A DNA stretch of 35,354 nt from an uncultured Bacteroidales bacterium. GTDB lineage: Bacteria > Bacteroidota > Bacteroidia > Bacteroidales > Bacteroidaceae. This document shows positions 7,474 through 27,760 of the stretch, one piece after another (positions within the stretch are counted from its first letter, which is position 1; every line of letters begins with the position of its first letter). The stretch is from positions 1 through 35,354 of the forward strand of contig CACZBC010000043.1 in assembly GCA_902779315.1 (NCBI GenBank), read 5' to 3'. A program made the translations under genes and the position numbers. Below the pieces are notes generated by a model. That model was not told the DNA's origin and did not search any database. It saw only the letters and a list, made by a program, of their open reading frames with translations.

Positions 7474-7561
7474 GCAAACGTAACACGTTAAGTTGGTCAA
7501 CTTCACACGTGAAGTTTGCAAATTACACACGTGAAGTTTGGCAACGACACTGCAGTCGTTT
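7474..7561 (+). repeat. 22-bp-period degenerate direct-repeat array, locus A
   Basis: Core sequences begin at 7488 (TTAAGTTGG), 7510 (TGAAGTTTGC), 7532 (TGAAGTTTGG) and 7554 (AGTCGTTT), exactly 22 nt apart. The middle two are preceded by CACACG. A core in the opposite orientation (GCAAACGT, 7474-7481) sits just to the left. The array ends 4 nt from the stop codon of the Lrp gene. It belongs to the same family as the arrays near 14240, 20023 and 27615, but uses TGAAG in place of TGACG. Confidence 0.7.
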
Positions 7562-7564
7562 TTA

Positions 7565-8032
7565 TTAGCTCAACGGAAGCTGGTGCGAGTTCTTGACCTC
7601 GCCGAGGACGAAGAACGAGTTGAGTGAGCCGATGCAGTCGAGGTCGCCAAGAATTCTGAGCACGAATTCCTGGTAAGCCTTCATGTCTGAGACGTAGATT
7701 TTAAGCATGAAGTCGTAGTCTCCGCTGATGTTGTAGCACTCCACAATCTCAGGAATTTGCTGCACTGCCTCCATGATACGGTGCGCGTTCTCGTGGGAAT
7801 GTTGCTTCATCCGCAGGTTGCAAAAGGCGATGAAGCCTCGGTTAATCTTCTCCGCATCTAGCACAGCCATGTATTTTTTGATGTAACCTTCGCGTTCGAG
7901 GCGTTTCACGCGTTCGAATGTGGGAGTGGGAGAGAGGTGAATCTTCGCTGCTAACTCCTTGTTAGTCAATCTGGAATCGTCCTGCAAAAGGCTTAGAATT
8001 CGCAGATCTGTTTCGTCAAGAATGTTCGTCAT
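7565..8032 (-). CDS. Lrp/AsnC family transcriptional regulator
   Basis: A 155-residue protein. The chosen start is the ATG at 8032 (MTNILDETDLRILSLLQ), where Lrp homologs begin; an upstream in-frame ATG at 8068 would add 12 unlikely residues. An N-terminal helix-turn-helix (ELAAKIHLSPTPTFERVKRL) is followed by a C-terminal AsnC/RAM ligand-binding domain (IVECYNISGDYDFMLKIYV). The family binds amino acids or related metabolites and forms octamers or similar oligomers. The gene is divergent from metY-cysK across a 203-nt region, so it probably controls sulfur amino-acid synthesis as well as itself. The effector cannot be read from the sequence; methionine, cysteine or O-acetylhomoserine are plausible. 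Confidence 0.92.
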   Translation of the reverse strand: MTNILDETDLRILSLLQDDSRLTNKELAAKIHLSPTPTFERVKRLEREGYIKKYMAVLDAEKINRGFIAFCNLRMKQHSHENAHRIMEAVQQIPEIVECYNISGDYDFMLKIYVSDMKAYQEFVLRILGDLDCIGSLNSFFVLGEVKNSHQLPLS

Positions 8033-8106
8033 TTGAGTTAAAGAATCTTTTACCTGCAGAAGGGGCATTTCTTATCCTTTGTCAGGTGTTTTTATCTGTT
8101 ATGCGA

Positions 8107-8116
8107 TGCAAAGTTA
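8107..8116 (-). promoter_or_regulatory. -7 box of the Lrp-family gene promoter
   Basis: Read on the minus strand, the sequence is TAACTTTGCA, containing the Bacteroidota -7 box TAnnTTTG at 8116-8109. It lies 77 nt upstream of the regulator ATG. No good -33 TTTG was found at the usual spacing, so the promoter may be weak or need an activator. It forms a perfect 10-bp inverted repeat with the metY -7 box at 8168-8177. Confidence 0.55.
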
Positions 8117-8141
8117 GTAATTATTTCTAAATATTTCATTC

Positions 8142-8153
8142 TTCTTGGAAGAA
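8142..8153. promoter_or_regulatory. Candidate operator between the divergent lrp and metY promoters
   Basis: TTCTT-GG-AAGAA is a dyad that overlaps the probable metY -33 element (CTTG, 8144-8147). It sits midway between the two -7 boxes, where an Lrp-type protein could control both directions. This is inferred from symmetry and position only. Confidence 0.35.
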
Positions 8154-8175
8154 ATTTCATGTTGCCGTAACTTTG
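8144..8175 (+). promoter_or_regulatory. Promoter of metY-cysK
   Basis: The -7 box TAACTTTG is at 8168-8175, and a CTTG -33-like element ends at 8147, 20 nt upstream. The predicted transcript has a leader of roughly 55 nt before the metY ATG. No known riboswitch fold was recognised in that leader. Confidence 0.65.
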
Positions 8176-8235
8176 CACCGTCGAAAGGACATAAAAACGC
8201 ACGAAAAAAAACGTAACAATACATTATTTAATATT

Positions 8236-9522
8236 ATGAGTACGCAGAAACAACACCTCGAGACCATTGCCTTGCATGCAGGACAAGTGGCAGACCCAAC
8301 AACAGATTCATGTGCAGTGCCTATCTATCAGACTGCAAGTTATGTATTTCACAATGCCCAACACGCAGCAGATCGTTTCGGACTCCGTGATGCGGGAAAC
8401 ATTTACGGACGTTTGACGAACTCCACTCAAGGCGTTTTGGAAGAACGTATTGCAGCTCTGGAAGGTGGTGTGGCAGCCCTCGCAGTCGCTTCTGGTGCTG
8501 CTGCCATCACTTACGCCCTGCAAAATATTGCTCAAGCAGGCGATCATATCGTGGCAGCAGACAACCTTTATGGAGGCTCTTATAACCTTATCACCCACAC
8601 CCTCGCTGCTTCAAAAATCGCCCATTCCATCGTAAAAATCAATGATCTTGAAGCTTTGGAAGCCGCCATTCAACCCAACACAAAAGTCATCTACGCGGAG
8701 ACTTTGGGCAATCCGAACAGCGACGTGCTGAACATAGAAGGTGTGGCTGAGGTGGCACATAGGCATGGAATCGTCTTTATCGTCGATAACACCTTCGCTC
8801 CGTTGTTGATTCGTCCCTTGGAACATGGCGCAGATATCGTCGTACATTCAGCCACGAAGTTTATTGGCGGACATGGAACTACCCTTGGCGGCGTGATTGT
8901 TGATGGCGGTAAGTTCGACTGGAAAGCTAATGCAGACCGTTATCCTTCGATAGCAAAGCCCGATGCCAGCTATCACGGTGCAGTCTTTGCCGATGTTGCA
9001 GGACCAGCTGCTTTCGTGACTCGCATTCGTGCCGTCATCCTTCGCGATACTGGAGCAGCTATTTCGCCATTTAATGCATGGATTCTCTTGCAGGGAGTCG
9101 AGTCGTTGCCTTTGCGAATCGAGCGTCATACAGAAAATGCCTTGAAGGTTGTTGATTACCTTTCGAAGCATCCTTTGGTAGCGAAAGTGAATCATCCGGC
9201 ACTTGCTTCTCATCCAGATCATGCTCTTTATGAGAAGTATTTTCCAAAAGGAGGAGCCAGCATCTTTACCTTTGAGATTAAAGGCGGACAGGAAGCAGCA
9301 TGGAAATTCATCGATGCGTTGAAGATTTTCACTTTGCTTGCGAACGTGGCTGACGTGAAGAGTCTCGTCATTCATCCTGCCACAACGACTCATTCGCAAC
9401 TATCCGAAGAGGAACTTGCCGAGCAGCACATCACCCCGAGCACAGTCCGTCTGAGCATCGGTGTTGAGCATATCGACGACATCATAGCAGACCTAGAACA
9501 GGCTTTCAATGCAATAAAATAG
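8236..9522 (+). CDS. metY: O-acetylhomoserine sulfhydrylase (O-acetylhomoserine aminocarboxypropyltransferase)
   Basis: A 428-residue PLP enzyme of the Cys/Met metabolism family. The start is the ATG at 8236 (MSTQKQHLETIALHAGQ), which matches the usual N-terminus; an open frame extends upstream but looks non-coding. The PLP-binding lysine is K208 in SATKFIGGHG. Other family signatures are YGRLTNSTQ, an aromatic-glycine stretch DNLYGGSYNLI, and the VADVKSLVIHPATTTHSQL motif near the C-terminus. Members of ~430 residues with this signature convert O-acetylhomoserine and sulfide to homocysteine; methionine gamma-lyase and cystathionine gamma-synthase are usually shorter. It is co-transcribed with cysK, 40 nt downstream, and probably controlled by the divergent Lrp-family regulator. 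Confidence 0.92.
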   Translation: MSTQKQHLETIALHAGQVADPTTDSCAVPIYQTASYVFHNAQHAADRFGLRDAGNIYGRLTNSTQGVLEERIAALEGGVAALAVASGAAAITYALQNIAQAGDHIVAADNLYGGSYNLITHTLAASKIAHSIVKINDLEALEAAIQPNTKVIYAETLGNPNSDVLNIEGVAEVAHRHGIVFIVDNTFAPLLIRPLEHGADIVVHSATKFIGGHGTTLGGVIVDGGKFDWKANADRYPSIAKPDASYHGAVFADVAGPAAFVTRIRAVILRDTGAAISPFNAWILLQGVESLPLRIERHTENALKVVDYLSKHPLVAKVNHPALASHPDHALYEKYFPKGGASIFTFEIKGGQEAAWKFIDALKIFTLLANVADVKSLVIHPATTTHSQLSEEELAEQHITPSTVRLSIGVEHIDDIIADLEQAFNAIK

Positions 9523-9562
9523 GCACTCAATACGTTAATATTAATAGAAAAAAGGAAATATT

Positions 9563-10492
9563 ATGGCAATCTACAATTCAATTACTGAACTTATAGGCAA
9601 GACGCCGTTGGTTCAACTCAGCACATTTGCACAAAATCGCGACCTGAAAGCAAACGTCATAGCTAAAGTGGAGTTCTTCAACCCTGGTGGAAGCGTCAAG
9701 GATCGTATTGCTCTCAGCATGGTACTCGATGCAGAGAAGAAAGGCATCCTCAAGCAAGGTGGCACCATTATCGAACCTACTAGTGGCAATACGGGTGTCG
9801 GACTCTCGCTTGTGGGTGCAGTTCGTGGCTATAAAGTCATCCTGACGATGCCAGAGACGATGAGCATAGAACGTCGCAAACTGGCTCAGGCTTATGGTAC
9901 AGAAATCGTTCTCACACCTGGCAGCGAGGGCATGAAGGGTGCTATCCGAAAGGCAGAAGAGTTGCGCGACAGCATTCCTGGAGCCGTCATTCTGCAGCAG
10001 TTCGAGAATCCCGCCAATCCCGCTATTCATGTTAAGACGACGGGCGAGGAGATTTGGAAAGACACAGAAGGCAAGGTCGATGTCTTCGTAGCTGGAGTAG
10101 GAACTGGTGGAACTGTTTCTGGTGTTGCCAAGGCGCTGAAGGCTCACAATCCCAATGTCTATGTTGTTGCTGTTGAGCCAGCCTCGAGTGCAGTTCTTTC
10201 TGGCCAACCTTCTGGCGCTCACAAGATTCAAGGCATTGGTGCAGGTTTCGAGCCAAAGAACTTCGACCGCCCTCTCATTGATGAGATTTTGCCTGTCAGC
10301 AACGAAGATGCCTTTGCCACCTCAAGAGCCGTTGCCAAGGAAGAGGGTATTTTCGTTGGCATCTCCTCTGGTGCAGCAGCTTTTGCAGCAAGTGTAGTAG
10401 CTCAACGTCCTGAGTTTGCAGGCAAGAATATCGTCGTTCTTTTGCCCGATACAGGCGAACGCTATCTCTCAACGGCTTTGCTCGAAGAATAA
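9563..10492 (+). CDS. cysK: Cysteine synthase A (O-acetylserine sulfhydrylase)
   Basis: A 309-residue fold-type II PLP enzyme. The PLP lysine is K46 in NPGGSVKDR, followed by the substrate loop EPTSGNTG and the phosphate-binding GVGTGGTVSG. It makes cysteine from O-acetylserine and sulfide in the cytosol. It has the normal CysK length and lacks any N-terminal haem-binding or C-terminal CBS domain, so it is not a cystathionine beta-synthase fusion. It lies 40 nt after metY without an intervening promoter, giving a two-gene sulfide-assimilation operon. Confidence 0.95.
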   Translation: MAIYNSITELIGKTPLVQLSTFAQNRDLKANVIAKVEFFNPGGSVKDRIALSMVLDAEKKGILKQGGTIIEPTSGNTGVGLSLVGAVRGYKVILTMPETMSIERRKLAQAYGTEIVLTPGSEGMKGAIRKAEELRDSIPGAVILQQFENPANPAIHVKTTGEEIWKDTEGKVDVFVAGVGTGGTVSGVAKALKAHNPNVYVVAVEPASSAVLSGQPSGAHKIQGIGAGFEPKNFDRPLIDEILPVSNEDAFATSRAVAKEEGIFVGISSGAAAFAASVVAQRPEFAGKNIVVLLPDTGERYLSTALLEE

Positions 10493-10533
10493 AGAAAAGC
10501 GGTCATTCTCTTTTTTGTTTGCAGATAATTTTG

Positions 10534-10541
10534 TACTTTTG
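10534..10541 (+). promoter_or_regulatory. -7 box of the hydrolase-fucosidase operon
   Basis: TACTTTTG fits TAnnTTTG and lies 34 nt before the ATG at 10575. A TTTG at 10514-10517 is 16 nt upstream, shorter than the ideal 19-20, so the -33 assignment is weak. Confidence 0.5.
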
Positions 10542-10574
10542 TCTCTCGAAGGATGATATAATCGCGAGAAACGT

Positions 10575-12746
10575 ATGAAATTATCTGCATCTTTTTTCTT
10601 TTTCTTCTTTGCTCTGACTGTTTCGGCTCAGGCACAGGAAAAGACTACCTTTCAGACTTTAGGGCCTTGGAAGCCAGTCACAGACATTCGCTCCGACCTC
10701 GTGATGGTCTATGGAGCCAACGATAACCGGCGAATGACTTTCCGCGAGAGAGTGGAGTCATGGCGACAGAGAGGTTATACCGCCCACTTTATGACCGGTA
10801 TTGCCTGGGGCGACTATCAGGACTATTTCACAGGCAAATGGGATGGAAGATGGCACTTCGACGAAGGGCAGAAGACGATGCAGGGCGACACAATCTGGCA
10901 CGGCCGCCTCATTCCTTATATTATTCCCACAAAGAACTACCTCGCTTATTTCAAGGAACGTCATATAAAACCAGTCATTGATGCCGGCATCGACGCCATT
11001 TTCCTCGAGGAGCCTGAGTTTTGGGCAAGAGCCGGATACAGCGAGGCTTTCAAGCGCGAGTGGCAAGACTATTATGGTTTTCCTTGGCGTCCTCAACACG
11101 AAAGTGCGGAGAACACTTATCTCTCCAACAAACTGAAGTACCACCTCTATTATCGTGCTCTGGATGAGGCTTTTACGTATGCCAAGCAATATGGTCGCGA
11201 GAAAGGGATGAATGTCCGCTGTTATGTTCCGACACATTCGCTCCTCAACTATTCGCAATGGCAGATTGTTTCGCCCGAAGCCTCACTCGCCTCGATGGAG
11301 AGTTGCGACGGCTACATTGCTCAGGTATGGACGGGTACTTCCCGCGAACCGAACTATTTCAACGGCAAAGCTAAGGAGCGTGTCTTCGAGACGGCTTTCC
11401 TGGAGTATGGTTGTATGGAGTCCATGACGCGACCAACCGGCCGCAAGATGTTCTTCTTGACAGACCCCATCGAGGACAGGGCAAAGGATTGGGAGGACTA
11501 CAAGCGTAACTATCAAGCCACCTTCACGGCTCAATTGCTCTATCCTCAGATAGCCGATTACGAGGTGATGCCTTGGCCAGACCGCATCTATGAAGGCCTG
11601 TACAAGGTGAGTGCGAATAGCAACGAGAAGGCACATATTCCGCGTTTCTATTCCACACAGATGCAAGTGATGGTCAACACACTCAACTTCATGCCACTCT
11701 CCGAAAACCGAGTCAGCGGGTCGCAAGGCATTTCCGTACTGATGGCGAACTCCCTGATGTTCCAACGTTCACCAAGACCTGTGGAGGGTTATGACGACCC
11801 ACAACTCTCCAATTTCTACGGCGAGGCATTGCCTTTGTTGAAGCGAGGCGTACCTGTCAGCATCACGCACATCGAGAACGTAGGTTATGCCGAAACGTGG
11901 AAAGATGTGAAAGTGCTTTTGATGTCTTACAGCAACATGAAGCCCCTCTCGCCCGAAGCACATACTTGTTTGGCAGAATGGGTGAAAAAGGGCGGTTTCA
12001 TCGTATATTCTGGCAGAGACAACGACCCCTATCAAGGTGTGCAAGAGTGGTGGAATCAGGACGAGATGCACTATGCTGCACCTTCTCAGCACCTCTTCTC
12101 CTTGATGGGTATTCCAGAGAGAGCCGAGGAGGGCGAATATAAATATGGTAAAGGCAAGGTATTTGTGCTGAGGCACGACCCAAAGGAATATGTCCTCAAG
12201 AAGGGTGGTGACAAGAAGTTCGTGGAGGTTGTCGAGAAGGCTTACGGCAAGTTGGAGCAGAAGAACTCCTTCTATCTGGAGCGCGGCCCATATACCCTTG
12301 TCGCTGTACTCGACGAAGGTGTCGTGAACAACAATCCTTATACAATAAAGGGCGATTTCATCGATCTTTTCTCGCCAGAACTTACTTATTATTCCGAGAC
12401 AAGCATTTTGCCAGGTCAGCAAGGTTTCTTCTTCGATTTGAGAAAGATTGACAAGAAACGTCCGCAAGTTATTGCAGCAGCCTCGCGTCAGTATGACGAG
12501 AAGATTACCGGCGAAGGCTTCAGCTTCACCTGCAAGTCGCCACTCAATACCACAAACATCGTTTGCCTTTACTTGCCCAAAGACTACAAATCGGGCAAAT
12601 TCACCCTGACTGATGCGGAAGGCAATACGGTCAACCACGAAATGAGGGTCATAACGGCTCCCACCAACACCCTTGCAGGACGATTGTTCTGGCTCAAGTT
12701 CGAGAACTCACCCGATGGAATCAATGTTCAAATCAAGAAAAACTAA
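10575..12746 (+). CDS. Secreted TIM-barrel glycoside hydrolase-like protein, uncharacterised
   Basis: A 723-residue protein with a clear signal peptide (MKLSASFFFFFFALTVSAQAQ). The first ~330 residues look like a TIM barrel: SDLVMVYGAND, MTGIAWGDYQDY, then DAIFLEEPEFWARAGYSEAF with a pair of acidic residues where GH42-like enzymes place the acid/base. The middle region (KVLLMSYSNMKPLSPEAHTCLAEWVKKGG) resembles the glutamine-amidotransferase-like trimerisation domain of GH42 beta-galactosidases. The C-terminal ~150 residues are probably beta-sandwich. I cannot assign a CAZy family or substrate. It lies 7 nt before a GH29 fucosidase, so it probably acts on the same fucosylated glycan. No SusC/D, sulfatase or regulator accompanies the pair. 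Confidence 0.6.
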   Translation: MKLSASFFFFFFALTVSAQAQEKTTFQTLGPWKPVTDIRSDLVMVYGANDNRRMTFRERVESWRQRGYTAHFMTGIAWGDYQDYFTGKWDGRWHFDEGQKTMQGDTIWHGRLIPYIIPTKNYLAYFKERHIKPVIDAGIDAIFLEEPEFWARAGYSEAFKREWQDYYGFPWRPQHESAENTYLSNKLKYHLYYRALDEAFTYAKQYGREKGMNVRCYVPTHSLLNYSQWQIVSPEASLASMESCDGYIAQVWTGTSREPNYFNGKAKERVFETAFLEYGCMESMTRPTGRKMFFLTDPIEDRAKDWEDYKRNYQATFTAQLLYPQIADYEVMPWPDRIYEGLYKVSANSNEKAHIPRFYSTQMQVMVNTLNFMPLSENRVSGSQGISVLMANSLMFQRSPRPVEGYDDPQLSNFYGEALPLLKRGVPVSITHIENVGYAETWKDVKVLLMSYSNMKPLSPEAHTCLAEWVKKGGFIVYSGRDNDPYQGVQEWWNQDEMHYAAPSQHLFSLMGIPERAEEGEYKYGKGKVFVLRHDPKEYVLKKGGDKKFVEVVEKAYGKLEQKNSFYLERGPYTLVAVLDEGVVNNNPYTIKGDFIDLFSPELTYYSETSILPGQQGFFFDLRKIDKKRPQVIAAASRQYDEKITGEGFSFTCKSPLNTTNIVCLYLPKDYKSGKFTLTDAEGNTVNHEMRVITAPTNTLAGRLFWLKFENSPDGINVQIKKN

Positions 12747-12753
12747 ATAAACC

Positions 12754-14226
12754 ATGAAACAAGTCTTTTTATTCTTCATTCTTCACGCTTCGTTCTTCAC
12801 TCTCTTGGCTCAGAAGAATGCGCCAGAGCCGATTGGTCCGCTGCCTTTGCCAAAGCAGGTCGAGTGGCAGAAGATGGAAACCTATGCCTTTGTCCACTAC
12901 GGACTGAACACCTTTACCGACAAGGAATGGGGTTATGGCGATGCCGACCCCAAGACGTTCAACCCTTCGCGAATGGACGTGGAACAATGGGTGAGGACGT
13001 TCAAGCAGGCTGGCATGAAGGGTGTCATCATCGTGGCCAAGCATCACGACGGATTTGCGATGTGGCCCTCGCCCTTGACTGACTATAATATCACGAAGTC
13101 CTCTTACGATGGGCCGAAGAACAAGGATGGAAAAGTTGATGTCCTTGCTGAGGTGCGAAAGGCATGCGACAAGTATGGACTGAAGATGGGAGTGTATCTC
13201 TCGCCTTGGGATAGGAATCATGCTGAGTATGGACGTCAGGCCTATGTGGATTACTACCACAAGCAACTCGAGCAACTGACGACAGAATACGGGCCGCTCT
13301 TCGAGGTTTGGCTGGATGGCGCGAATGGTGGCGACGGCTACTATGGTGGGGCTCGAGAGACGCGCAAGATAGACCATCGCAACTACTACAACTTCCCCAA
13401 GATTCATTCTATCATTGAGAAGAACCAACCTCAAGCCATCATTTTCAGCGACGGAGGACCTGGTTGTCGTTGGGTTGGCAATGAGAACGGTATTGCGGGA
13501 ATCCCTAACTGGTCGTTCCTCAAGAAGGATAAGGTCTATCCAGGAATGCCGAACAACGAAGTGCTGGGTAGCGGTTTCCCTGACGGCGACATTTGGGTGG
13601 CTGCAGAATGCGATGTGTCCATTCGTCCGGGCTGGTTCTACCATCCTGAAGAGGACGGCAAGGTGAAGACGCCTGAGCAACTTGCCGACCTCTATTATAA
13701 GTCTGTGGGAAGGAATGCGACATTCTTGCTCAACTTCCCTGTCGACCGAGAGGGTAGGGTGAATGCTATCGACAGTGCAAATGCGGTTCGCTTCCGTCAG
13801 ATTATCGACGAGGACTTGAAGACGAACCTCCTGCGAAAGGCTAAGGTTGCAGCCAGCAGCGAAAGAGGTAAAAGCTTTAGTGCCAAGAAGTTGAACGACG
13901 GCAAGTGGGACACTTACTGGGCGACTCCAGACGGTATTGATATAGGTTCGGTCACCTTTACCTTCAGCAAGCCGACCAAAGTGAACAGGCTTCTTTTGCA
14001 AGAATACATTCCTTTGGGACAGCGAGTAAAGTCCTTCGTTGTGGAAGTTCTGGTGGATGGCGAATGGAATCAGATAGATCCAGGCGAGCCCTTCGGAAAC
14101 ATCGGCTACAAACGCATCTTGCGTTTTCCCACTGTTGAGGCGAAAGCCATTCGAGTTGGGATAAACGAAAGCCGAGGTCCTCTCTGCATCAACAACATCG
14201 AGGCTTATTGTGCGAAGGGAAACTAG
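12754..14226 (+). CDS. Alpha-L-fucosidase, GH29, with C-terminal F5/8 C-like domain
   Basis: A 490-residue secreted enzyme with a signal peptide ending near FFTLLAQ. GH29 features are FVHYGLNTFTDKEWGYGD, then IVAKHHDGFAMWPS, then the nucleophile aspartate D188 in FEVWLDGANGG. The acid/base residue is not conserved by motif in this family and cannot be assigned here. After residue ~350, a discoidin-type beta-sandwich follows (AAPS-like start AASSERGKSFSAKKLNDGKWDTYW shortened: LNDGKWDTYWATPDG). Exo-alpha-L-fucosidases release fucose from host or plant glycans in the periplasm. The preceding hydrolase is 7 nt upstream. The 22-bp repeat array B starts 12 nt after the stop codon. Confidence 0.9.
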   Translation: MKQVFLFFILHASFFTLLAQKNAPEPIGPLPLPKQVEWQKMETYAFVHYGLNTFTDKEWGYGDADPKTFNPSRMDVEQWVRTFKQAGMKGVIIVAKHHDGFAMWPSPLTDYNITKSSYDGPKNKDGKVDVLAEVRKACDKYGLKMGVYLSPWDRNHAEYGRQAYVDYYHKQLEQLTTEYGPLFEVWLDGANGGDGYYGGARETRKIDHRNYYNFPKIHSIIEKNQPQAIIFSDGGPGCRWVGNENGIAGIPNWSFLKKDKVYPGMPNNEVLGSGFPDGDIWVAAECDVSIRPGWFYHPEEDGKVKTPEQLADLYYKSVGRNATFLLNFPVDREGRVNAIDSANAVRFRQIIDEDLKTNLLRKAKVAASSERGKSFSAKKLNDGKWDTYWATPDGIDIGSVTFTFSKPTKVNRLLLQEYIPLGQRVKSFVVEVLVDGEWNQIDPGEPFGNIGYKRILRFPTVEAKAIRVGINESRGPLCINNIEAYCAKGN

Positions 14227-14237
14227 GCACAGTTAAA

Positions 14238-14340
14238 TCGCAAACGTATAGTGTGACGTTGGCGATTAACTAGTGTGACGTTTGCATTTTACTAGTGTGA
14301 CGTTTGCATTTAACTAGTGTGTCGTTTGCAATCGTAACAC
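14238..14340 (+). repeat. 22-bp-period direct-repeat array, locus B
   Basis: Four cores begin at 14254 (TGACGTTGGC), 14276 (TGACGTTTGC), 14298 (TGACGTTTGC) and 14320 (TGTCGTTTGC), exactly 22 nt apart. The last three are preceded by CTAGTG, so each repeat carries the palindromic hexamer ACTAGT. An inverted core (GCAAACGT, 14240-14247) precedes the array. The array fills most of the space between the fucosidase stop and the thioredoxin promoter. Confidence 0.8.
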
Positions 14341-14379
14341 GAAATCTTTTCGCCAGACAATAAAAACAGACAGATTTAT

Positions 14380-14410
14380 TTTGTACTGTACTTGCTTATT
14401 CGTACCTTTG
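14380..14410 (+). promoter_or_regulatory. Promoter of the thioredoxin-DUF6029-Omp28 operon
   Basis: A TTTG -33 box (14380-14383) and a TACCTTTG -7 box (14403-14410) are separated by 19 nt, the ideal Bacteroidota primary-sigma arrangement. The -7 box ends 28 nt before the ATG. It lies 60 nt beyond repeat array B. Confidence 0.8.
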
Positions 14411-14438
14411 CATCCGAAAAACGATAATAGCAGGATAA

Positions 14439-14927
14439 ATGAAAAGACTGATACTCTTTCTGGTCGCGGCTTTTTGCCTTTCCATACATTATGTTCAGGC
14501 TCAGTTGCCGACCATCACCTTGAAGACGATGAACGGTGTAGAAGTGCGGACAGACACCCTTTCGAACGGTGGGAAACCCTTCATCGTGGATTTCTTCGCT
14601 ACTTGGTGCAAGCCTTGCAATCGCGAGTTGGACGCTATCAGCGAGGTCTATGAGGAATGGCAGGAAGAAACTGGCGTGAAGATTTTTGCCGTGAGTATCG
14701 ACCAGGCGCAAAACATCAATAAGGTGAAACCTTTGGTGGGCAATCACGGTTGGGAGTACGAGGTCTTGCTCGACCCAAACAGCGACTTTCTCCGTGCTGT
14801 TGGAGGGCAGATGATTCCCTACACGCTCATTGTCGATGGGAAGGGCAAAGTCGTGTATAAGCATAGCGGTTATACCGATGGAGCCGAAACGGAACTGATA
14901 GAGAAAGTGCGTGAGTTGCTGAAGTGA
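14439..14927 (+). CDS. TlpA/ResA-like periplasmic thioredoxin-family protein
   Basis: A 162-residue protein with a signal peptide (MKRLILFLVAAFCLSIHYVQAQ). A single thioredoxin-like domain carries the redox motif C57-K-P-C60 in DFFATWCKPCNREL. The cis-proline lies in QMIPYTLIVDGKG, typical of TlpA/AhpC-TSA proteins. It should reduce or shuffle disulfides in the periplasm. It is the first gene of an operon: the next gene overlaps its stop codon by one base. Because the downstream proteins have paired or multiple cysteines, it may serve them specifically; that is inference. Confidence 0.88.
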   Translation: MKRLILFLVAAFCLSIHYVQAQLPTITLKTMNGVEVRTDTLSNGGKPFIVDFFATWCKPCNRELDAISEVYEEWQEETGVKIFAVSIDQAQNINKVKPLVGNHGWEYEVLLDPNSDFLRAVGGQMIPYTLIVDGKGKVVYKHSGYTDGAETELIEKVRELLK

Positions 14928-19894: not shown

Positions 19895-20022
19895 CTTCGT
19901 AGTGTGTCAAAATCGTCTGACCTTGGGGTGCGTTTTATCAGTAAGTCAATTTTTTCTTTTTGGGATAGGGATTCGCCGCTGCGTGTCCCCATTCATATAT
20001 GGTGTTCCGCGAAGGGAATCGT

Positions 20023-20082
20023 CACGTTTGACGTTTGCATTTGTCGCGTTTGACGTTTGCGTTTGTCACGTGTGACGTTCGG
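20023..20082 (+). repeat. 22-bp-period direct-repeat array, locus C
   Basis: Three cores begin at 20029 (TGACGTTTGC), 20051 (TGACGTTTGC) and 20073 (TGACGTTCGG), each 22 nt apart. They are preceded by CACGTT, CGCGTT and CACGTG respectively. Flanking sequence in register is degenerate, so further decayed units may exist on both sides. Confidence 0.75.
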
Positions 20083-20141
20083 CATCGTCGCGGCTTGTGT
20101 CAGCTTTCACATTGCAAAGGTACGACCTATTCAAAGAGCGT

Positions 20142-20725: not shown

Positions 20726-20737
20726 TCTCTTTGCTTG

Positions 20738-20823
20738 TGCCCGGAACGGGAATCGAACCCGTACGGCCATCACTGGCCAAGGGATTTTAAGTCCCTCGTG
20801 TCTACCAATTCCACCATCTGGGC
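20738..20823 (-). tRNA. tRNA-Leu (anticodon UAA)
   Basis: An 86-nt class II tRNA read on the minus strand. The anticodon arm has loop ACTTAAAAT with anticodon TAA. The long variable arm (TTGGCCAGTGATGGCC region) and the T arm GGTTCGATTCC are intact. CCA is not encoded. The acceptor stem GCCCAGA / TCCGGGC has an A5:C68 mismatch where most tRNA-Leu have a pair. There is no group I intron in the anticodon loop. Confidence 0.93.
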
Positions 20824-20846
20824 AGCCTTGCGGATTAAGAAAAAAA

Positions 20847-20874
20847 GTGAAAAGTGAAAAGTGAAAAGTGAAAA
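20847..20874. repeat. GTGAAAA heptamer microsatellite (4 copies)
   Basis: Four perfect tandem copies of GTGAAAA lie between tRNA-Leu and the end of cdsA. A comparable heptamer tract follows corA at 25541. Confidence 0.8.
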
Positions 20875-20916
20875 ATTATTCTTTATTCACTAATCTCTAA
20901 TCTTTAATCTGCAATA

Positions 20917-21762: not shown

Positions 21763-21771
21763 AAAATGCGA

Positions 21772-21810
21772 CCCCTTCCCGACCTCCCCGAGGGGGAGGA
21801 GAGAGTGGGG
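21772..21810. repeat. GC-rich palindromic spacer between ftsH and cdsA
   Basis: CCTCCCC (21783-21789) pairs with GGGGAGG (21793-21799) across a 3-nt loop, with outer CCCC (21772-21775) and GGGG (21807-21810) able to extend the structure. The type resembles GC-rich palindromic intergenic elements I have seen in Bacteroidales genomes (recollection, not checked). Within an operon it could stabilise the upstream ftsH message or weaken cdsA expression. Confidence 0.5.
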
Positions 21811-23805
21811 TTATTGGTTAGTATTCGTTTCTTCTTGGTTGGTCTCTTCTTCAGAAGCGGGCTTCGAGTCGAGCAACTCTTCCGTGCGGCTTGCCCAGGG
21901 ACGTGGGCCGAAGATGCGCTCCACATCTTCTGCGAAGATGACTTCGCGCTCGACGAGCAGTTGGGCAAGGGCGGCATGACCTTCGGCATTCTTCTGCAGG
22001 ATGTCCTTCGCACGGGCGTATTGCTCGGCTATCATGGCCTTTGTCTCCTCGTCGATGAGCTGTGCCGTCGCTTCGGAATAGGGGCGCTGGAAGCCGTATT
22101 CCTGGTTGTCGTAGTAGCAGAGGTTGGGCAGTTTGTCGCTCATGCCCATATAGGTTATCATGCTGTAGGCCTGCTTGGTGACGCGCTCCAGGTCGTTCAT
22201 GGCGCCGCTGCTGATGTGACCGCAGAAGAGTTCCTCGGCAGCACGGCCTCCAAGGGTAGCGCACATCTCGTCGAGCATCTGTTCGCGTGTCGTGATCTGT
22301 CGCTCTTCGGGCAAGTACCAGGCAGCACCAAGGGCACGGCCTCGCGGCACGATGGTGACCTTGACGAGCGGATTGGCATATTGCAGGAGCCAACTGATTG
22401 TGGCGTGACCCGCTTCGTGGAGGGCGATGGTGCGCTTCTCCTCGGCCGTCATCACTTTGGTCTTCTTCTCCAGTCCGCCGATTATACGGTCCACAGCGGC
22501 CAGGAAGTCGTCCTTGTCGACCGCCTTCTTGCCGTTTCGAGCCGCGATGAGAGCCGCTTCGTTGCAGACATTTGCGATATCCGCACCGCTGAAACCGGGT
22601 GTCTGACGGGCCAGGAAGTCGATATCGAGCGTACTGTTGGTCTTGATGGGTTTCAGGTGCACCTGGAAAATTTCCTTGCGCTCGTTCACATCGGGCAGCT
22701 CGACATGTATCTGGCGGTCGAAGCGACCTGCACGCAGCAGGGCCTTGTCCAGGATGTCGGCGCGATTGGTGGCGGCCATGATGATGACACCGCTATTGGT
22801 TCCGAAACCGTCCATCTCGGTGAGGAGCTGGTTGAGCGTGCTCTCGCGTTCGTCGTTGCCTCCCACTTGCATGCTGCGGCTACGGGCACGGCCCACAGCA
22901 TCAATCTCGTCGATGAAGATGATGCAGGGGGCTTTCTCTTTAGCCTGACGGAAAAGGTCGCGAACACGACTGGCTCCGACGCCCACAAACATCTCGACAA
23001 AATCGCTGCCCGACATGCTGAAGAAAGGCACATCGGCTTCGCCGGCAACGGCCTTTGCCAGCAGGGTCTTACCCGTTCCCGGAGGGCCTACGAGCAGAGC
23101 GCCTTTGGGAATCTTGCCGCCCAGTTCGGTGTAGCGTTGGGGGTTCTTGAGGAACTCCACGATTTCCTGCACCTCGAGTTTTGCGCCTTCCTGACCGGCC
23201 ACATCGGCAAAGGTCACCTTGTTGTTGTCGTCCTTCTCGAAGAGTTTGGCGCGGCTCTTGCCGACATTGAAGATGCCCATCGGCCCGCCTCCGCCTTCGC
23301 CTCCGCCACTCATTCGTCGCATCAGGAAAATCCAGAAGAAAACGATGAGGATGAGCGGACCGAAACTCCAGAAGAAGTGCATGAAGTCGTCTTCTCCCTG
23401 GCGGTACTCAATCTCGCCCTTGAAGTTCTCGAGGGCCTGCTGCTCGCTGATGAAGTCCTCCAGCTTGTCGGCCGAGGGGACTTGCACCACGACATAGGGG
23501 CGCGTGCCCTGGTTGACCTTCTGCTCCTTGAAGACATCGCGGATATGGCTGGGCTCGACATACATCTGCAGGGCGCCCTCCTTCTTGTTGACAACGATGC
23601 GCGAGGCAAAACCCTGTTGCACATAGCTCTTGAACTCGCTATAAGTGGCGTTTCGCGAAGAGCCTCCGGAAAGGAGGGAACTGTCGCCACTCAGGAACAT
23701 CCAACCCAGCACGAAGGCAATAATCAGATAGATCCAGGTAAGACTGATTTGCGAACCGGGTTTCTTGTTCTTGTTGTTTTTGCTATTCTTGTTGTTTTCG
23801 TTCAT
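21811..23805 (-). CDS. ftsH: ATP-dependent zinc metalloprotease FtsH
   Basis: A 664-residue AAA+ membrane protease. The ATG at 23805 ([15 protein letters not shown]) is chosen over a TTG two codons upstream. An Asn/Lys-rich cytosolic tail leads to TM1 ([15 protein letters not shown]), a periplasmic domain, then TM2 ([17 protein letters not shown]). The AAA module has Walker A GPPGTGKT (K246), Walker [12 protein letters not shown], and an SRH region ([20 protein letters not shown]). The zinc site is H463-E-A-G-H467. It degrades membrane and short-lived cytosolic proteins. It starts 2 nt after the rsfS stop, so the two are translationally coupled. The Gln/Asn/Glu/Thr-rich tail ends just before the palindromic spacer. 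Confidence 0.97.
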
Positions 23806-23807
23806 AT

Positions 23808-24170
23808 TCAATCCAGGTTAGGAATGCTTTGCAAGTCGGCATCGGCCCATAGGTGTTCGATGTCGTAGAACGAGCGTAGTTCGGGCACGAAGATGTGCAC
23901 GATGACCTCGGCATAGTCCATCGCCACCCAAACGGCATTGTGCAATCCGCTGACGGCAATGGGTTTGGCAGCCGCCTTTTCGCGGCAAGTGTCTCCCACG
24001 GAATGCGCCAGGGCGGCAACCTGCAAAGGCGAACCGCCCGTACAGATGACAAAGTAGCGGCAAACGGCATCGGGGATTTCCGTCAGGTCGGCCACCACGA
24101 TGTCCCGTCCCTTCTTATCCTGCAATCCTTCTACTATGGCTTCTACCAACTCGTTCTTCTTTTTCTTCAT
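23808..24170 (-). CDS. rsfS: Ribosomal silencing factor RsfS
   Basis: A 120-residue cytosolic protein. The ATG at 24170 (MKKKKNELVEAIVEGLQDKKG) is the start; an open frame runs further upstream through the promoter but is not homologous. Family features are KGRDIVVADLTEI, YFVICTGGSPLQVAALA and the DYAEVIVHIFVPELRSFYDIEHLW block. RsfS binds uL14 on the 50S subunit and blocks subunit joining during starvation. Two promoters lie upstream; ftsH and cdsA follow in the same transcript. Confidence 0.93.
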   Translation of the reverse strand: MKKKKNELVEAIVEGLQDKKGRDIVVADLTEIPDAVCRYFVICTGGSPLQVAALAHSVGDTCREKAAAKPIAVSGLHNAVWVAMDYAEVIVHIFVPELRSFYDIEHLWADADLQSIPNLD

Positions 24171-24209
24171 TCGCAATATATTATAATATGTATTATACCT
24201 AATTGGCTG

Positions 24210-24240
24210 CAAAGATACGAATAAGTGAGCGAAAAACAAA
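24210..24240 (-). promoter_or_regulatory. Proximal promoter of rsfS-ftsH-cdsA
   Basis: On the minus strand, -33 TTTG (24240-24237) and -7 TATCTTTG (24217-24210) are 19 nt apart, the ideal spacing. The -7 box lies 39 nt before the rsfS ATG. Confidence 0.75.
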
Positions 24241-24295
24241 AGGAAACGTAAGTTTTCTTTTTTATTTCCGAACGAAAGTGTCTTCGAGCAGAGGT

Positions 24296-24326
24296 CAAAG
24301 ATACGAAGAAGCATGCAAAATGCAAA
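24296..24326 (-). promoter_or_regulatory. Distal promoter of rsfS-ftsH-cdsA
   Basis: A second consensus pair on the minus strand, -33 TTTG (24326-24323) and -7 TATCTTTG (24303-24296), again with 19-nt spacing. It is 86 nt upstream of the proximal promoter, with the same -7 octamer. Confidence 0.65.
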
Positions 24327-24352
24327 ATAAATTAGTTTTTTTTGGCAAATTA

Positions 24353-24384
24353 TTTGGTCAGTTTACAAAAAAGCCATACCTTTG
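24353..24384 (+). promoter_or_regulatory. tRNA-type promoter now reading into the corA leader
   Basis: -33 TTTG (24353-24356) and -7 TACCTTTG (24377-24384) are 20 nt apart. The -7 box ends 9 nt before the tRNA-like 5' half at 24394, as expected for a tRNA gene promoter. The next gene downstream is corA. Confidence 0.75.
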
Positions 24385-24393
24385 CAGCGCAAT

Positions 24394-24423
24394 TGGGCTA
24401 TGGTGTAATGGTAACACTGCAGA
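24394..24423 (+). pseudogene. tRNA 5' half (tRNA-Gln-like), truncated in the anticodon loop
   Basis: The sequence has a tRNA 5' acceptor strand TGGGCTA, T8-G9, a D arm GTGT-AATGGTA-ACAC with the invariant GG, and an anticodon 5' stem GCAGA. Beyond this, pairing stops: the expected TCTGC strand, T arm and TAGCCCA acceptor strand are absent in the next 200 nt. The T at position 1 and overall sequence point to a tRNA-Gln ancestor. The promoter is intact, so the fragment is probably transcribed as the start of the corA leader. Confidence 0.65.
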
Positions 24424-24611
24424 TCTGAGGAAGTGCGGCCTTTTTCAAACATAAAAACGGAGAAACAAAGCATTTCATAACAACAATGGACGACTATCAC
24501 GCGGATAATTACAGTTCTTAGTGCTCTGGAGTCTGCATCGCATTGCACGCTCCACGAAGGAGCCAAGGATTTCTGTGCAAGTACCCCAAACAAAAACGGA
24601 GGAAAAAGACG
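24424..24611 (+). promoter_or_regulatory. Long untranslated leader of the CorA-family gene
   Basis: The 188 nt between the tRNA half and the corA ATG hold a hairpin GCTCC-ACGAA-GGAGC (24549-24563) and two similar purine-rich stretches (AAAAACGGAGAAAC near 24455 and AAAAACGGAGGAAAAAG near 24593). The second provides a strong GGAGG ribosome-binding site. A tiny ORF at 24486-24521 (MDDYHADNYSS) lacks a clear ribosome-binding site. No known Mg2+ riboswitch was recognised. Confidence 0.45.
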
Positions 24612-25538
24612 ATGCGAACTTACTGGAACACTACGAATGGTCTGCGTACCATTAAGGAATGGCAGCCTGGCTGCTGGGTGCAAGTTACCTGCCCAACCGA
24701 GGAAGACAAGAACTTCCTGGAAGAAACCCTCAAAATCCCCGATTATTACGTAAGCGACATTGCCGATACGGACGAACGTGCCCGTTACGACATCGACGAA
24801 GGCTGGGTGCTCATCATCCTGCGTATCCCCTATGTCAAGGAAAACAAGAGCCGCACTCCCTACACCACGATTCCCCTGGGTATCATCATGAAGGGCGATG
24901 TCCTCATCACGGTCTGCAACTTCGAGACAAACATGATGATCGACTTCGTCTCCTATCAACAGAAACGCGGTCTCGGCTTTGTCGATTCCGTGGATATGAT
25001 ATTCCGTCTGTTCCTCTGTTGTGCCGTCTGGTATCTGAAACGACTCAAGCAGATAAGTACCCGCATCGATAAGGCCAAACAGAACCTCGACCACAAGATC
25101 AGTAATGCCGACCTTATTGCTCTGAGCCGTTTGCAGGACAGCCTGACCTACTTCGTCACATCCATTCGTGGCAACGAGAACTTGCTTTCGAAGCTGAAGT
25201 TCAAACTCCCCATCGATGAGCTCGACGCGGATATGATAGAGGACGTGAGCATCGAGATGAGTCAGGCTCGCGAGACCACAAACATCTACGCGAACATCCT
25301 CGACTCCACGATGGACACTTACGCCAACCTGATCAACAACAACATGAACTCGGTCATGAAGATGCTTACGAGCATCAGCATTATCCTGATGTTCCCGACG
25401 CTCATTGCCAGCCTCTTTGGCATGAACTTGGTGAACGGTATGGAGACGGTTTCGTGGGGCTTCCCGCTTGCGCTCGTCCTCTCGATTGGCGTGACCGTTC
25501 TCTTTATGTGGTATTTCAAGAGGAAAACGTGGATTTAA
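24612..25538 (+). CDS. corA: CorA-family divalent cation (Mg2+/Co2+) transporter
   Basis: A 308-residue protein. The ATG at 24612 (MRTYWNTTNGLRTIKEWQPG) follows GGAGG by 9 nt and is the family start; an upstream in-frame ATG at 24543 lies in the leader. A cytosolic alpha/beta domain and long helices (to ~245) lead to two C-terminal membrane helices. The pore signature G270-M271-N272 is present in LFGMNLVNGME, followed by the second helix and a basic tail (YFKRKTWI). It forms pentameric Mg2+ channels in the inner membrane. Its promoter and leader start appear to be taken from a broken tRNA gene. A terminator follows 66 nt after the stop. Confidence 0.88.
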   Translation: MRTYWNTTNGLRTIKEWQPGCWVQVTCPTEEDKNFLEETLKIPDYYVSDIADTDERARYDIDEGWVLIILRIPYVKENKSRTPYTTIPLGIIMKGDVLITVCNFETNMMIDFVSYQQKRGLGFVDSVDMIFRLFLCCAVWYLKRLKQISTRIDKAKQNLDHKISNADLIALSRLQDSLTYFVTSIRGNENLLSKLKFKLPIDELDADMIEDVSIEMSQARETTNIYANILDSTMDTYANLINNNMNSVMKMLTSISIILMFPTLIASLFGMNLVNGMETVSWGFPLALVLSIGVTVLFMWYFKRKTWI

Positions 25539-25540
25539 GT

Positions 25541-25566
25541 CATAGTTCATAGTTCATAGTTCATAA
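25541..25566. repeat. CATAGTT heptamer microsatellite after corA
   Basis: Three copies of CATAGTT (from 25541) and a partial fourth (CATAATT) follow the corA stop codon directly. It is the second heptanucleotide tract in the window, after GTGAAAA at 20847. Confidence 0.75.
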
Positions 25567-25604
25567 TTAAGAGTTGAAATTTCAAAAAACGCGATAAAAA
25601 TCGG

Positions 25605-25634
25605 GCCCTTTCCTTGCAGGTTAGGGCTTTTTTT
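25605..25634 (+). terminator. Intrinsic terminator of corA
   Basis: GCCCT (25605-25609) pairs with AGGGC (25623-25627), with possible inner pairing, followed at once by seven T residues (25628-25634). Confidence 0.75.
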
Positions 25635-25636
25635 AT

Positions 25637-25644
25637 TTACTTTG
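25637..25644 (+). promoter_or_regulatory. Possible -7 box of the DUF349 gene
   Basis: TTACTTTG differs from TAnnTTTG at one position and lies 34 nt before the ATG at 25679, directly after the corA terminator. No confident -33 element. Confidence 0.4.
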
Positions 25645-25678
25645 CGTCCACTATACCTATTTTTATTAAACAAACACA

Positions 25679-27604
25679 ATGATGGACTCTTTAGAGACTA
25701 ACGAAACCACTGCCCTTGAGCAGTCTTCTGAGATTAAGAACGAACAACAGGTAGAACCTACAGTTGAAGCAGTAGAACAAGTAGAAGCCGCAGAGCAGGC
25801 CGAACCCGAAGCAGAAGCTCCCCAACAAGAGCTTGAAGCAGAAGCACTTGAGCCCGAGCCCGAAGCAACCGAAGCAGAGCAGCACGTCGCCGAGCAGACC
25901 TTCAAGACGAAGGACGAGGTGGTGGCCCGAGTTCAGGAAATAGCGCAAAGCGGCGAAGCCGGCGACCGTACAGAGCTCAACCTCCTGAAGCAACTCTTCT
26001 ACAAGTTCCATAATGCCGAAGTGCAGGAAGCCTTCAAGGCTTTCGTCGAGGCAGGCGGAGAAGCAGAGAAGTTCATGCCCGAGATTGATCCCGCCGAGCC
26101 TGTTTTCCGCGAAGCAATGCAGACCATTCGCGACCGTCGCGCTGCCATCCAGGAAACATTGGAGAAGCAGAAGCAGGACAACCTGAAGCGCAAGCTCGAG
26201 ATCCTGGAGCGCATCCAGCAACTTGCCTCTACACCCGAGGAAGCCAACAAGAACTTCGACGAGTTCAAGGCTCTCCAAACCGAGTGGAAGGAAATCAAGG
26301 CCGTTCCCGCAGAAAAGGCTACGGAGCTTTGGAAGAACTACCAGCTCTACATAGAACAGTACTATGACTTGCTGAAGCTGGGACACGAACTCCGCGACTA
26401 CGACTTCAAGAAGAACCTCGAGACCAAGATGCGACTCATCCAGCAGGCTGAGGCTCTTGCCGAGAATCCCGATATACTGCAGGCTTTCAATCAGTTGCAA
26501 GCCCTCCATCAGGAATGGAAGGAGACTGGTCCTGTTGCCAAGGAAATCCGCGAAGACGTCTGGGCAAAGTTCAAGGAGGCCTCTACGGTCATCAATAAGA
26601 AACATCAGGCTTACTTCGACGCCCTTAAGGCTCGCGAGGAAGAGAACCTGACGAAGAAGACTGCACTCTGCGAACAGCTTGAAGCCTTCTCGACAGAAGG
26701 GCTCAAGACCTTCGCCGATTGGGATGCCATCACGCAGAAGATTAAGGAGTTGCAGGCTGAATGGAAGACGATTGGCTTTGCTCCGCAAAAGATGAACACA
26801 GCCATCTTCGAGCGTTTCCGCCAAGGTTGCGACGCTTTCTTCGAGAAGAAGAATGCCTTCTTCAAAGACCTCAAGGACGAACTTAACAGCAATCTTGCCA
26901 AGAAGAAGGAACTCGTGGAGAAGGCCGAATCGCTGATGGAAAGCACGGAATGGCGTTCCACAGGCGACATCCTCATCAACCTGCAGAAACAATGGAAAGA
27001 GATAGGAACCGTTCCTCGCAAGTATAGCGAAGACCTCTGGAAGCGCTTCACAGCCGCTTGCGACCATTTCTTCGAAGCCCGTCAGGTAGCGACTGCAGAC
27101 GTTCGCAACGAAGAAAAGGCCAACAAGGAACAGAAGCTCGGCATCATCGAACAGCTCAAAGAACTTGCTGAGACTCAGGGCGAAAACGTTATCGCTCAGG
27201 TCAAGGAGTTGCAACAGAAGTGGAGCGAAGTGGGCCATGTTCCTTTCCGCGACAAAGAGACGCTCTACAAGGAGTATCGCGGCCTTTGCGACAAGATCTA
27301 CGACGCTTATGGTGTAAGCCAGGCAAAACGCCGTCTGAACAACTTCCGCAAGAACCTTGCCGAGAAGGTGGAAAATGCAGGAGGTTCGCTCGAAAACGAA
27401 CGTCAGAAGATGCAGCGCGCTTACGAGCGGATGCTGGCTGAAATCAAGACCTACGAGAACAACATCGGCTTCCTCAATGCTGGCAGCAAGAAGGGCAACT
27501 CCCTCGTCGAGGCGATGAACAAGAAAGTGGAGAAACTTCGCGACGAACTCAACCTCTTGGCTCAGAAGATCAGGGCCGTCGACGATGAAATGAAGGAGGA
27601 TTAG
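25679..27604 (+). CDS. DUF349 repeat protein
   Basis: A 641-residue, mostly helical cytosolic protein. Residues ~1-75 are acidic, low-complexity and Glu/Ala/Pro-rich (VEAAEQAEPEAEAPQQ). The rest holds five DUF349 repeats of ~78 residues, recognisable by W-K-[ET]-[IT]-G-x-[VA]-P centres near residues 201 (EWKEIKAVP), 279 (EWKETGPVA), 360 (EWKTIGFAP), 437 (QWKEIGTVP) and 514 (KWSEVGHVP), each followed by a W/F-x-x-[FY] helix. DUF349 function is not established; the repeats suggest an extended coiled scaffold. ATG 25679 is followed by a second ATG; either could be used. The gene is monocistronic, with array D starting 13 nt after its stop. Confidence 0.9.
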   Translation: MMDSLETNETTALEQSSEIKNEQQVEPTVEAVEQVEAAEQAEPEAEAPQQELEAEALEPEPEATEAEQHVAEQTFKTKDEVVARVQEIAQSGEAGDRTELNLLKQLFYKFHNAEVQEAFKAFVEAGGEAEKFMPEIDPAEPVFREAMQTIRDRRAAIQETLEKQKQDNLKRKLEILERIQQLASTPEEANKNFDEFKALQTEWKEIKAVPAEKATELWKNYQLYIEQYYDLLKLGHELRDYDFKKNLETKMRLIQQAEALAENPDILQAFNQLQALHQEWKETGPVAKEIREDVWAKFKEASTVINKKHQAYFDALKAREEENLTKKTALCEQLEAFSTEGLKTFADWDAITQKIKELQAEWKTIGFAPQKMNTAIFERFRQGCDAFFEKKNAFFKDLKDELNSNLAKKKELVEKAESLMESTEWRSTGDILINLQKQWKEIGTVPRKYSEDLWKRFTAACDHFFEARQVATADVRNEEKANKEQKLGIIEQLKELAETQGENVIAQVKELQQKWSEVGHVPFRDKETLYKEYRGLCDKIYDAYGVSQAKRRLNNFRKNLAEKVENAGGSLENERQKMQRAYERMLAEIKTYENNIGFLNAGSKKGNSLVEAMNKKVEKLRDELNLLAQKIRAVDDEMKED

Positions 27605-27614
27605 AAACGACCCC

Positions 27615-27760
27615 AGTGTCGTTGGCTATTATCACGTGTGACGATTGCGATTTACTAGTGTGACGTTTGCATTTAACTAGTGCGACGTTTGCGATTTACT
27701 AGTGTGATGTTTGCGATTATCACGTTTTACGTTTGGAATCTTCCCACGTGACGTTTCCTT
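27615..27760 (+). repeat. 22-bp-period direct-repeat array, locus D (seven units)
   Basis: Cores begin at 27617 (TGTCGTTGGC), 27639 (TGACGATTGC), 27661 (TGACGTTTGC), 27683 (CGACGTTTGC), 27705 (TGATGTTTGC), 27727 (TTACGTTTGG) and 27749 (TGACGTTTCC). Every step is exactly 22 nt although the units differ. Left of each core is either CTAGTG or CACGTG/CACGTT. A core is followed by an AT-rich linker (GATTTA or ATTTAA). The period is not a multiple of three, so it is not coding. It is the longest of the four arrays. Confidence 0.85.

Follow-up and report, generated by a model that had tools for sequence, protein, structure and literature searches.

Tandem dyad arrays with a 22-bp period lie near gene 3′ ends in a Bacteroidaceae genome and recur with mostly unrelated unit sequences across the family

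Introduction

Integration host factor (IHF) and DNA polymerase I (Pol I) bind repetitive extragenic palindromic (REP) sequences and bacterial interspersed mosaic elements (BIMEs). In the parts of two papers drawn on here, REPs are described as extragenic palindromes of high copy number, located mostly between convergent or unidirectional genes, and those of Escherichia coli as targets of gyrase (PMC3733652; PMC3116915). The first of these sources also describes CGTC REPs, short extragenic palindromes without a dedicated transposase that are reported from Bacteroidetes as well (PMC3733652). BrickBuilt of Porphyromonas gingivalis, as presented in the sections consulted of PMC4596501, consists of intergenic tandem 23-nt repeats without spacers whose units expand and contract at conserved loci; it occurs in 19 copies and is a miniature inverted-repeat transposable element (MITE) with a leader, a tail and terminal inverted repeats. 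The same sections mention, second-hand, 22-nt direct repeats in P. gingivalis W83. Here we describe arrays of tandem 22-bp dyads in a 35,354-nt stretch of an uncultured rumen Bacteroidales bacterium of the Bacteroidaceae (contig CACZBC010000043.1 of GenBank assembly GCA_902779315.1; the whole stretch is hereafter called the window), where the original prediction, made from the letters alone, had noticed one 22-bp repeat family at four separate loci. Among the top matches of open-access literature searches, we found no description of such phase-locked arrays.

Results

Four arrays in the window and roughly 200 in the genome

The window holds four arrays, named A to D, in each of which the copies start 22 bp apart. 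Their end units are degenerate, so the unit counts are approximate.

Array A: 7474..7561, no strand, about 4 units of period 22, holding the 22-bp dyad CAAACTTCAC-AC-GTGAAGTTTG
Array B: 14235..14344, no strand, 4 clear units starting at 14247, 14269, 14291 and 14313, mostly ACTAGTGTGACGTTTGC
Array C: 20010..20087, no strand, 3 units starting at 20022, 20044 and 20066
Array D: 27610..27763, no strand, about 7 units with starts from 27610 to 27742

Tandem Repeats Finder (TRF) reported period 22 at 7483-7550, 14249-14330 and 20021-20079, and 22/44 at 27616-27735. The 11-bp core GTGACGTTTGC, replaced by GTGAAGTTTG in array A, occurred 31 times in the window with at most 2 mismatches (mean 11.0 and maximum 18 in 100 dinucleotide shuffles), and one exact core pair spaced by 22 bp was present against 0.00 expected. 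Sequence, TRF period and core enrichment thus confirm that the four arrays belong to one family, as originally observed.

The window's own genome (G000; 2.83 Mb in 107 contigs, 84% complete) contained 178 exact copies of the core, compared with 1 for the reversed control. Arrays were called where the lag match across 44 bp reached a threshold of 0.62 to 0.68. The lag-22 test detected 4 arrays in the window and 8 in five other stretches of G000, each of 20 kb; TRF gave 8 rows for those five, two of them abutting. Scaled from 8 per 100 kb, the genome holds roughly 200 arrays, with a wide error. Far more arrays than the four of the window are therefore present, and the expectation of hundreds per genome, extrapolated from 35 kb, agrees with both the core count and the arrays outside the window.

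Relatives, whose genomes include metagenome-assembled genomes (MAGs), were searched in two ways. The exact core pair occurred in 29 stretches among database genome contigs, all from the yak-rumen MAGs Bacteroidaceae bacterium RGIG9745 and RGIG10220 (together RGIG), in a search that may have excluded the window's own genome; these two MAGs may equal, or be close to, G146 and G147. A looser pair, CGTTTGC twice at a distance of 22, was found in 28/139 genus genomes and was densest in G000 (91), G147 (82), G146 (52) and G070 (24); CGTTTGC is the same when reversed, which makes a reversed control uninformative for these counts. The exact core stayed near the control level in 119 other relatives, except in G036 (13 vs 1).

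Units change by substitution while the 22-bp phase is kept

The G000 loci L030-L089 were picked by the exact core and represent 60 of 69 clusters, taken from the first 100 of the 178 places; some overlap one another. Loci L090-L119 were picked by CGTTTGC and are not unbiased. The stretches treated as unbiased are parts of long contigs from the core and pair matches, plus five from G000, at positions away from the listed matches.

After removal of 3 duplicates, core-to-core distances in 61 G000 loci were 22 (138 cases), 44 (13) and 66 (3), with no other value up to 70, so that all 154 of 154 spacings were multiples of 22. Adjacent units differed at 4.0 of 22 bases, and 547 substitutions accumulated in the 138 pairs with zero change in length. 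Units are contiguous without spacers, which together with these spacings rules out a CRISPR.

TRF indel percentages were uninformative (0% indels in 145/204 imperfect 22-bp arrays vs 62/91 for periods 13-21), and the phase of 12-mer self-matches was used in their place. Every self-match was in phase in 70 G000 arrays (3483/3483) and in 33 RGIG arrays (1710/1710), each array contributing many non-independent matches. Among 75 other arrays, from congeners and at most one from another family, 3762/3923 were in phase; the off-phase matches fell at −1 (152), never at +1, and elsewhere in 9 cases. More than 20% were off phase in nine arrays, eight of the −1 kind (G036, G046, G052, G070) and one, L153, with another offset. 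In L158 and L168 (G036), 21- and 22-bp spacings are mixed, giving self-match lags of 43 and 65, whereas G000 is strictly 22. If the arrays are phased to the helix, 21-22 is expected to be preferred over 23, as seen here. At L266 4743-4889 (G193) the unit family itself switches midway, from ..GGTAAACATATACGTTTGAT.. to ..CTAAGTATAATACTTAGG.., and the 22-bp phase is kept across the switch.

The arrays lie outside genes, near 3′ ends and in convergent gaps

Genes were called with a codon-score open reading frame (ORF) caller. In the sampled G000 loci, 64/65 arrays overlapped a called gene by at most 40 bp, the exception being in L064; the arrays are thus dispersed and non-coding, as predicted. This placement, together with a period that is not a multiple of 3, rules out a coding origin. 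G000 arrays lay at a median of 27 bp from gene 3′ ends (n = 69) and of 123 bp from 5′ ends (n = 57).

Gaps of at least 100 bp were then classified by the orientation of the flanking genes, in stretches not picked for arrays. In G000, window included, an array was present in 7/8 convergent, 4/23 codirectional and 0/7 divergent gaps; the genus gave 6/16, 15/94 and 2/28, respectively. Pooled, these are 13/24, 19/117 and 2/35 (convergent vs codirectional, p=2e-4). The core strand matched that of codirectional genes in 20 cases and opposed it in 15. Terminators outside the array were counted in gaps with and without one (G000, 4/15 vs 5/24; genus, 7/23 vs 38/103), and the near equality decides nothing between mechanisms.

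The neighbourhood of the four arrays contains the following features.

Lrp/AsnC-type regulator gene: 7565..8068, minus strand, its stop codon only a few bases from the right end of array A
Edge dyad of array A: 7543..7560, plus strand, AACGAC-ACTGCA-GTCGTT followed by a T run, terminator-like
Alpha-L-fucosidase-like gene: 12754..14226, plus strand, upstream of array B, which starts about 8 bp past the stop codon at 14226
tRNA-Leu(TAA): 20737..20823, minus strand, facing array C and convergent with the plus-strand gene that ends on the other flank of that array
DUF349 protein gene: 25679..27604, plus strand, upstream of array D, which starts about 5 bp past the stop codon at 27604
Intrinsic-terminator-like hairpin with T run: 27781..27830, plus strand, beyond the right end of array D and identified by eye; the hairpin scan, whose range does not extend to so long a loop, did not report it

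The window also carries 7-bp microsatellites at 20843-20874 (AAAAGTG) and 25540-25565 (TCATAGT).

The dyad is the unit's module, and its RNA would fold on both strands

Among 283 G000 units in 84 chains, the centre was GT in 200 and AC in 52. The left inner arm, which makes up the left side of a dyad whose centre is mostly one of these dinucleotides, was ACTA (118), TCAC (38), TATA (32), TCTA (14), TAAC (13) or another type, at least seven left-arm types occurring in all, ACAC and TGGC included; right inner arms were GTGA (168), GTGT (17), GTTA (16), GCCA (14) and others. The ACTAGT and CACGTG flanks noticed at the outset are indeed present, as joints between left arm and centre, but they represent two of these arm types and not the two kinds of flank. 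Linkage between unit columns in G000 peaked across the centre and fell to its minimum at the TTTGC joint, which marks the dyad as the evolutionary module. The same pattern leaves a serine-recombinase crossover at the central GT unsupported.

Dyad symmetry exceeded that of column-permuted arrays (p<=0.05) in 26/106 arrays of G000 and RGIG, 39/78 of other congeners and 16/30 of other genera. An iterated position weight matrix (PWM) merged both strands; it exposed the dyad but was unfit for orientation. The first unit of arrays had 5.8/10 complementary pairs against a background of 2.5. At the edges of 74 G000 and RGIG arrays, T runs of at least 4 occurred in 30% and A runs of at least 4 in 26%, compared with 1.9% and 1.7% of random 9-mers.

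Mean RNA fold z was −2.0/−2.3 on the two strands for 30 of 68 G000 arrays and −2.5/−3.3 for 30 of 69 other arrays (a pool that includes one G000 locus, L109), against +0.15 for 30 random 120-mers. These values bear on the main rival to a DNA-level role, in which the arrays would be tandem hairpins of the 3′ untranslated region (3′-UTR), acting as bidirectional intrinsic terminators or protectors of mRNA 3′ ends. Location at 3′ ends and in convergent gaps, fold z well below that of random 120-mers on both strands, enriched T and A runs at the edges and the terminator-like edge dyad of array A all fit such a role. A series of hairpins, however, needs no exact 22-bp spacing, yet each of the 154 core distances (154/154) is divisible by 22. 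Downstream of array D stands a distinct terminator-like hairpin, outside terminators are about as frequent with an array as without, and the commonest unit pairs poorly. Foldability on both strands thus keeps the bidirectional hairpin model alive, with exact spacing as its main difficulty, and we consider it unlikely.

Geometry recurs across the family under mostly unrelated sequences

A 443-kb sample of the genus, made up of 23 stretches of 23 further genomes, yielded 91 TRF arrays, with period 22 in 24, period 21 in 3 and period 23 in 2. By lag, the intergenic counts were 27 at 22 and 2 each at 21 and 23. The unit sequences of these 22-bp arrays are mostly unrelated to one another. Period 7 was the top single TRF period in the G000 samples (11/43) and second to 22 in the genus samples (13/91).

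In 28 other genera of the family (38 stretches, 607 kb), intergenic DNA contained 12 arrays at lag 21, 13 at 22 and 0 at 23, with all remaining lags from 15 to 30 together contributing 8; coding DNA had 4 and 3 at lags 21 and 22. Four of these genera, sampled deeper (480 kb including the earlier stretches), showed 10 arrays at lag 22, 2 of which belong to the counts above; no other lag between 12 and 35 had more than 1. In 12 stretches (240 kb) of genomes from different families within the order, lags 21 and 22 had 1 array each. Runs of N are excluded from the lag counts, L257 near 6800-6900 enters them twice, at 21 and at 22, and a few arrays in the family set are of low complexity. Examples of period 21 in other genera are L225 8725-8815 and L244 12886-12983 (G192), whose units contain GTTTATATAAAC palindromes, and L239 and L257 (G214). 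Units of these genera are again mostly unrelated in sequence. Collectively, geometry is conserved across the family and sequence is not, the unit sequence being a dialect of a species or species group. The idea that the system has its own sequence rules therefore holds in that a rule exists, but what is invariant is the spacing plus the dyad.

A period kept while sequence is free could also mark a neutral minisatellite with a mutational ruler, in which lineage-specific repair or replication duplicates any 21-22 bp and coding copies are purged. The near-total restriction of arrays to intergenic DNA agrees with such purging. On the other hand, substitutions build up without indels, dyad symmetry is enriched, convergent gaps are favoured over codirectional ones, and units are shared between different loci within G000; we rate this origin as quite improbable. 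Dispersed, dialect-like repeats near gene ends would likewise resemble, by analogy, DNA uptake sequences for natural transformation. An uptake signal would not be expected to form phase-locked tandem arrays of differing sequence in a single genome, or to lie outside called genes in 64/65 cases, and this possibility appears very remote.

Array positions are conserved while units turn over

Fifteen RGIG-G000 locus pairs were aligned at 83-95% identity. Two have no array in either genome, and the other thirteen yield fourteen array pairs, all at corresponding places (14/14), L010/L033 being aligned on one flank only. Each orthologous locus had been selected because it holds an array, and the G000 locus L042 belongs to two of the pairs; the agreement therefore tests position rather than presence. 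Arrays B and C both have orthologous arrays in L021, that of B with TATAGTG-type units where G000 has ACTAGTG. Whole units are gained or lost between orthologues (3 vs 5 in L012/L087). At one orthologous place the array is inverted, L042 2444-2593 against L023 4639-4770 and L005 3066-3192, within surrounding DNA that is ~95% identical to L042 for L023 and ~89% for L005.

Slots of arrays D and A were then followed through orthologues of the DUF349 and Lrp/AsnC-type genes, using the best 29 per protein of 131 (D) and 107 (A) genomes with a match. The D slot held a 22-bp array in 8/24 orthologues at >=75% protein identity and in 0/5 below 75%; nine control lags gave 0/24 in this slot. Several congeners have unrelated units there, such as CAAAGACCTATACCTCTTTGCC in L163. 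Hairpins like the one after array D follow the stop codon in several orthologues, as read by eye, and in L170 the hairpin comes before the array. The A slot held an array in 6/13 orthologues at >=75% identity and in 1/16 below 75%. In this slot, the arrays of L201 (G052) and L196 (G162) are near-identical to that of G000, with one more unit in G052, which possibly reflects recent gene exchange, and those of L191, L195, L198 and L199 are strongly different.

The anticipated conservation of loci under turnover of units was thus found in the 14 alignable array pairs, at loci picked for arrays. Copy number, conserved places in other genomes and the absence of any match for array B in plasmid or phage collections rule out a single, recently inserted mobile element. 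The original interpretation is accordingly supported.

Spread by transposase is a separate question. The arrays might be selfish mobile repeats of the REP type or of the type of REP doublets forming hairpins (REPINs), without host function and with 3′ ends as tolerated insertion sites. High copy number, extragenic position, palindromes, dialects and the avoidance of divergent (promoter) gaps agree with this. However, no Y1 transposase (PF01797) was found in G000 at its 84% completeness; 53/139 genus genomes had Y1 over the cut-off, and the three densest genomes, G000, G146 and G147, had no match, with two borderline ones in G070. GTAG/CTAC tags occurred in 2/50 distinct units from outside G000, below the 7.4 expected from shuffles. 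An exact phase, and the turnover of whole units where the position is conserved, are also unlike transposition footprints. We regard this explanation as improbable.

Discussion

We tentatively favour the reading that these are dyad arrays in helical phase which act at the level of the DNA duplex where genes end, resembling REPs and BIMEs in their working but standing outside that family. The spacing tolerates substitution and not insertion, accepts 21 but hardly 23, is blind to strand and survives near-total change of sequence, which is best accounted for if the DNA duplex is constrained across two turns of the helix. The dyads point to a binder that is dimeric, and the location at 3′ ends and between convergent genes suggests a role in termination or in the handling of supercoils.

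The proposed element would be a chromosomal one, made of tandem dyads whose centres follow one another every two helical turns (at 22 bp, or at times 21) and placed at gene 3′ ends, with the gaps of convergent genes as its main site. Along one face of the helix, successive dyads would carry a dimeric DNA-binding factor or a topoisomerase, and an occupied array may end transcription, isolate the supercoils of neighbouring genes, or both. Unit sequences would drift and recombination would homogenise them into dialects, with selection keeping the phase. Possible binders, by speculation, include gyrase, Lrp and other named proteins.

The binding factor and the function are both ones that we infer, and several observations weigh against this reading. 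The commonest G000 unit (ACTAGTGTGACG...) is weakly self-complementary, and the stricter dyad test on consensus units was passed by 10/78 in G000, next to 26/106 for the array test in G000 and RGIG. Occupancy of the D slot is modestly above background (8/24 vs 15/94 codirectional, p=0.028), and the A slot is not enriched (6/13 vs 6/16 convergent). Between genes of the genus, lag 16 has a raised count too (7, next after 22). RNA foldability exceeds that of shuffles on both strands, as an RNA mechanism predicts. Finally, units have no weak/strong periodicity of ~11 bp (lag-11 z = −1.3 for 14 units of G000 or RGIG and +1.0 for 50 other units), which argues against simple wrapping or curvature and leaves phased A-tract curved DNA unsupported.

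More doubtfully, the helically phased arrays may be one family-wide element defined by geometry and not by sequence: intergenic dyad arrays held to a step of two helical turns (21-22 bp) that have fast-evolving dialects, are read by a factor sensing phase and dyad shape, and serve as transcriptional and topological insulators that mark where genes end or converge. Repeats are usually identified by their sequence, and an element that keeps only period and symmetry escapes homology searches. If phase is under selection, the arrays would offer a direct handle on gene separation and supercoil handling in a family of the gut and rumen, and on a protein that reads two-turn dyads. The proposal predicts that function is lost on half-turn insertions and that an array from one species can replace that of another even where their sequences are unrelated.

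How do the arrays compare with known systems? Like REPs, BIMEs and REPINs, as far as the cited sections describe them, they are short palindromic repeats, extragenic and of high copy number. Compared with the GTAG super-family and its REP-associated tyrosine transposases (RAYTs), they have an exact head-to-tail period of 22 bp without spacers, and their unit sequence changes freely while the period stays. The GTAG tag is depleted in units from outside G000 and a Y1 transposase was not found in G000, G146 or G147, as given above; this absence from G000 and its dense relatives weakens a RAYT-driven REP as an explanation. The likeness to CGTC REPs is that the G000 core contains CGTC on one strand; in other species CGTC occurs in 9/50 units, not above the 7.7 expected from shuffles. 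Phase-locked tandem arrays are not part of the description of CGTC REPs in the portion of PMC3733652 considered. With the 22-nt direct repeats of P. gingivalis W83, likened by a brief description, the arrays share repeat length and order. BrickBuilt, on the portion of PMC4596501 cited, is likewise a set of intergenic, spacerless tandem units in Bacteroidales that vary in number at conserved loci. By eye, no common leader, tail or inserted element surrounds the displayed arrays or the aligned orthologous flanks, and the arrays differ from BrickBuilt in having a period of 21-22 and many unrelated unit sequences.

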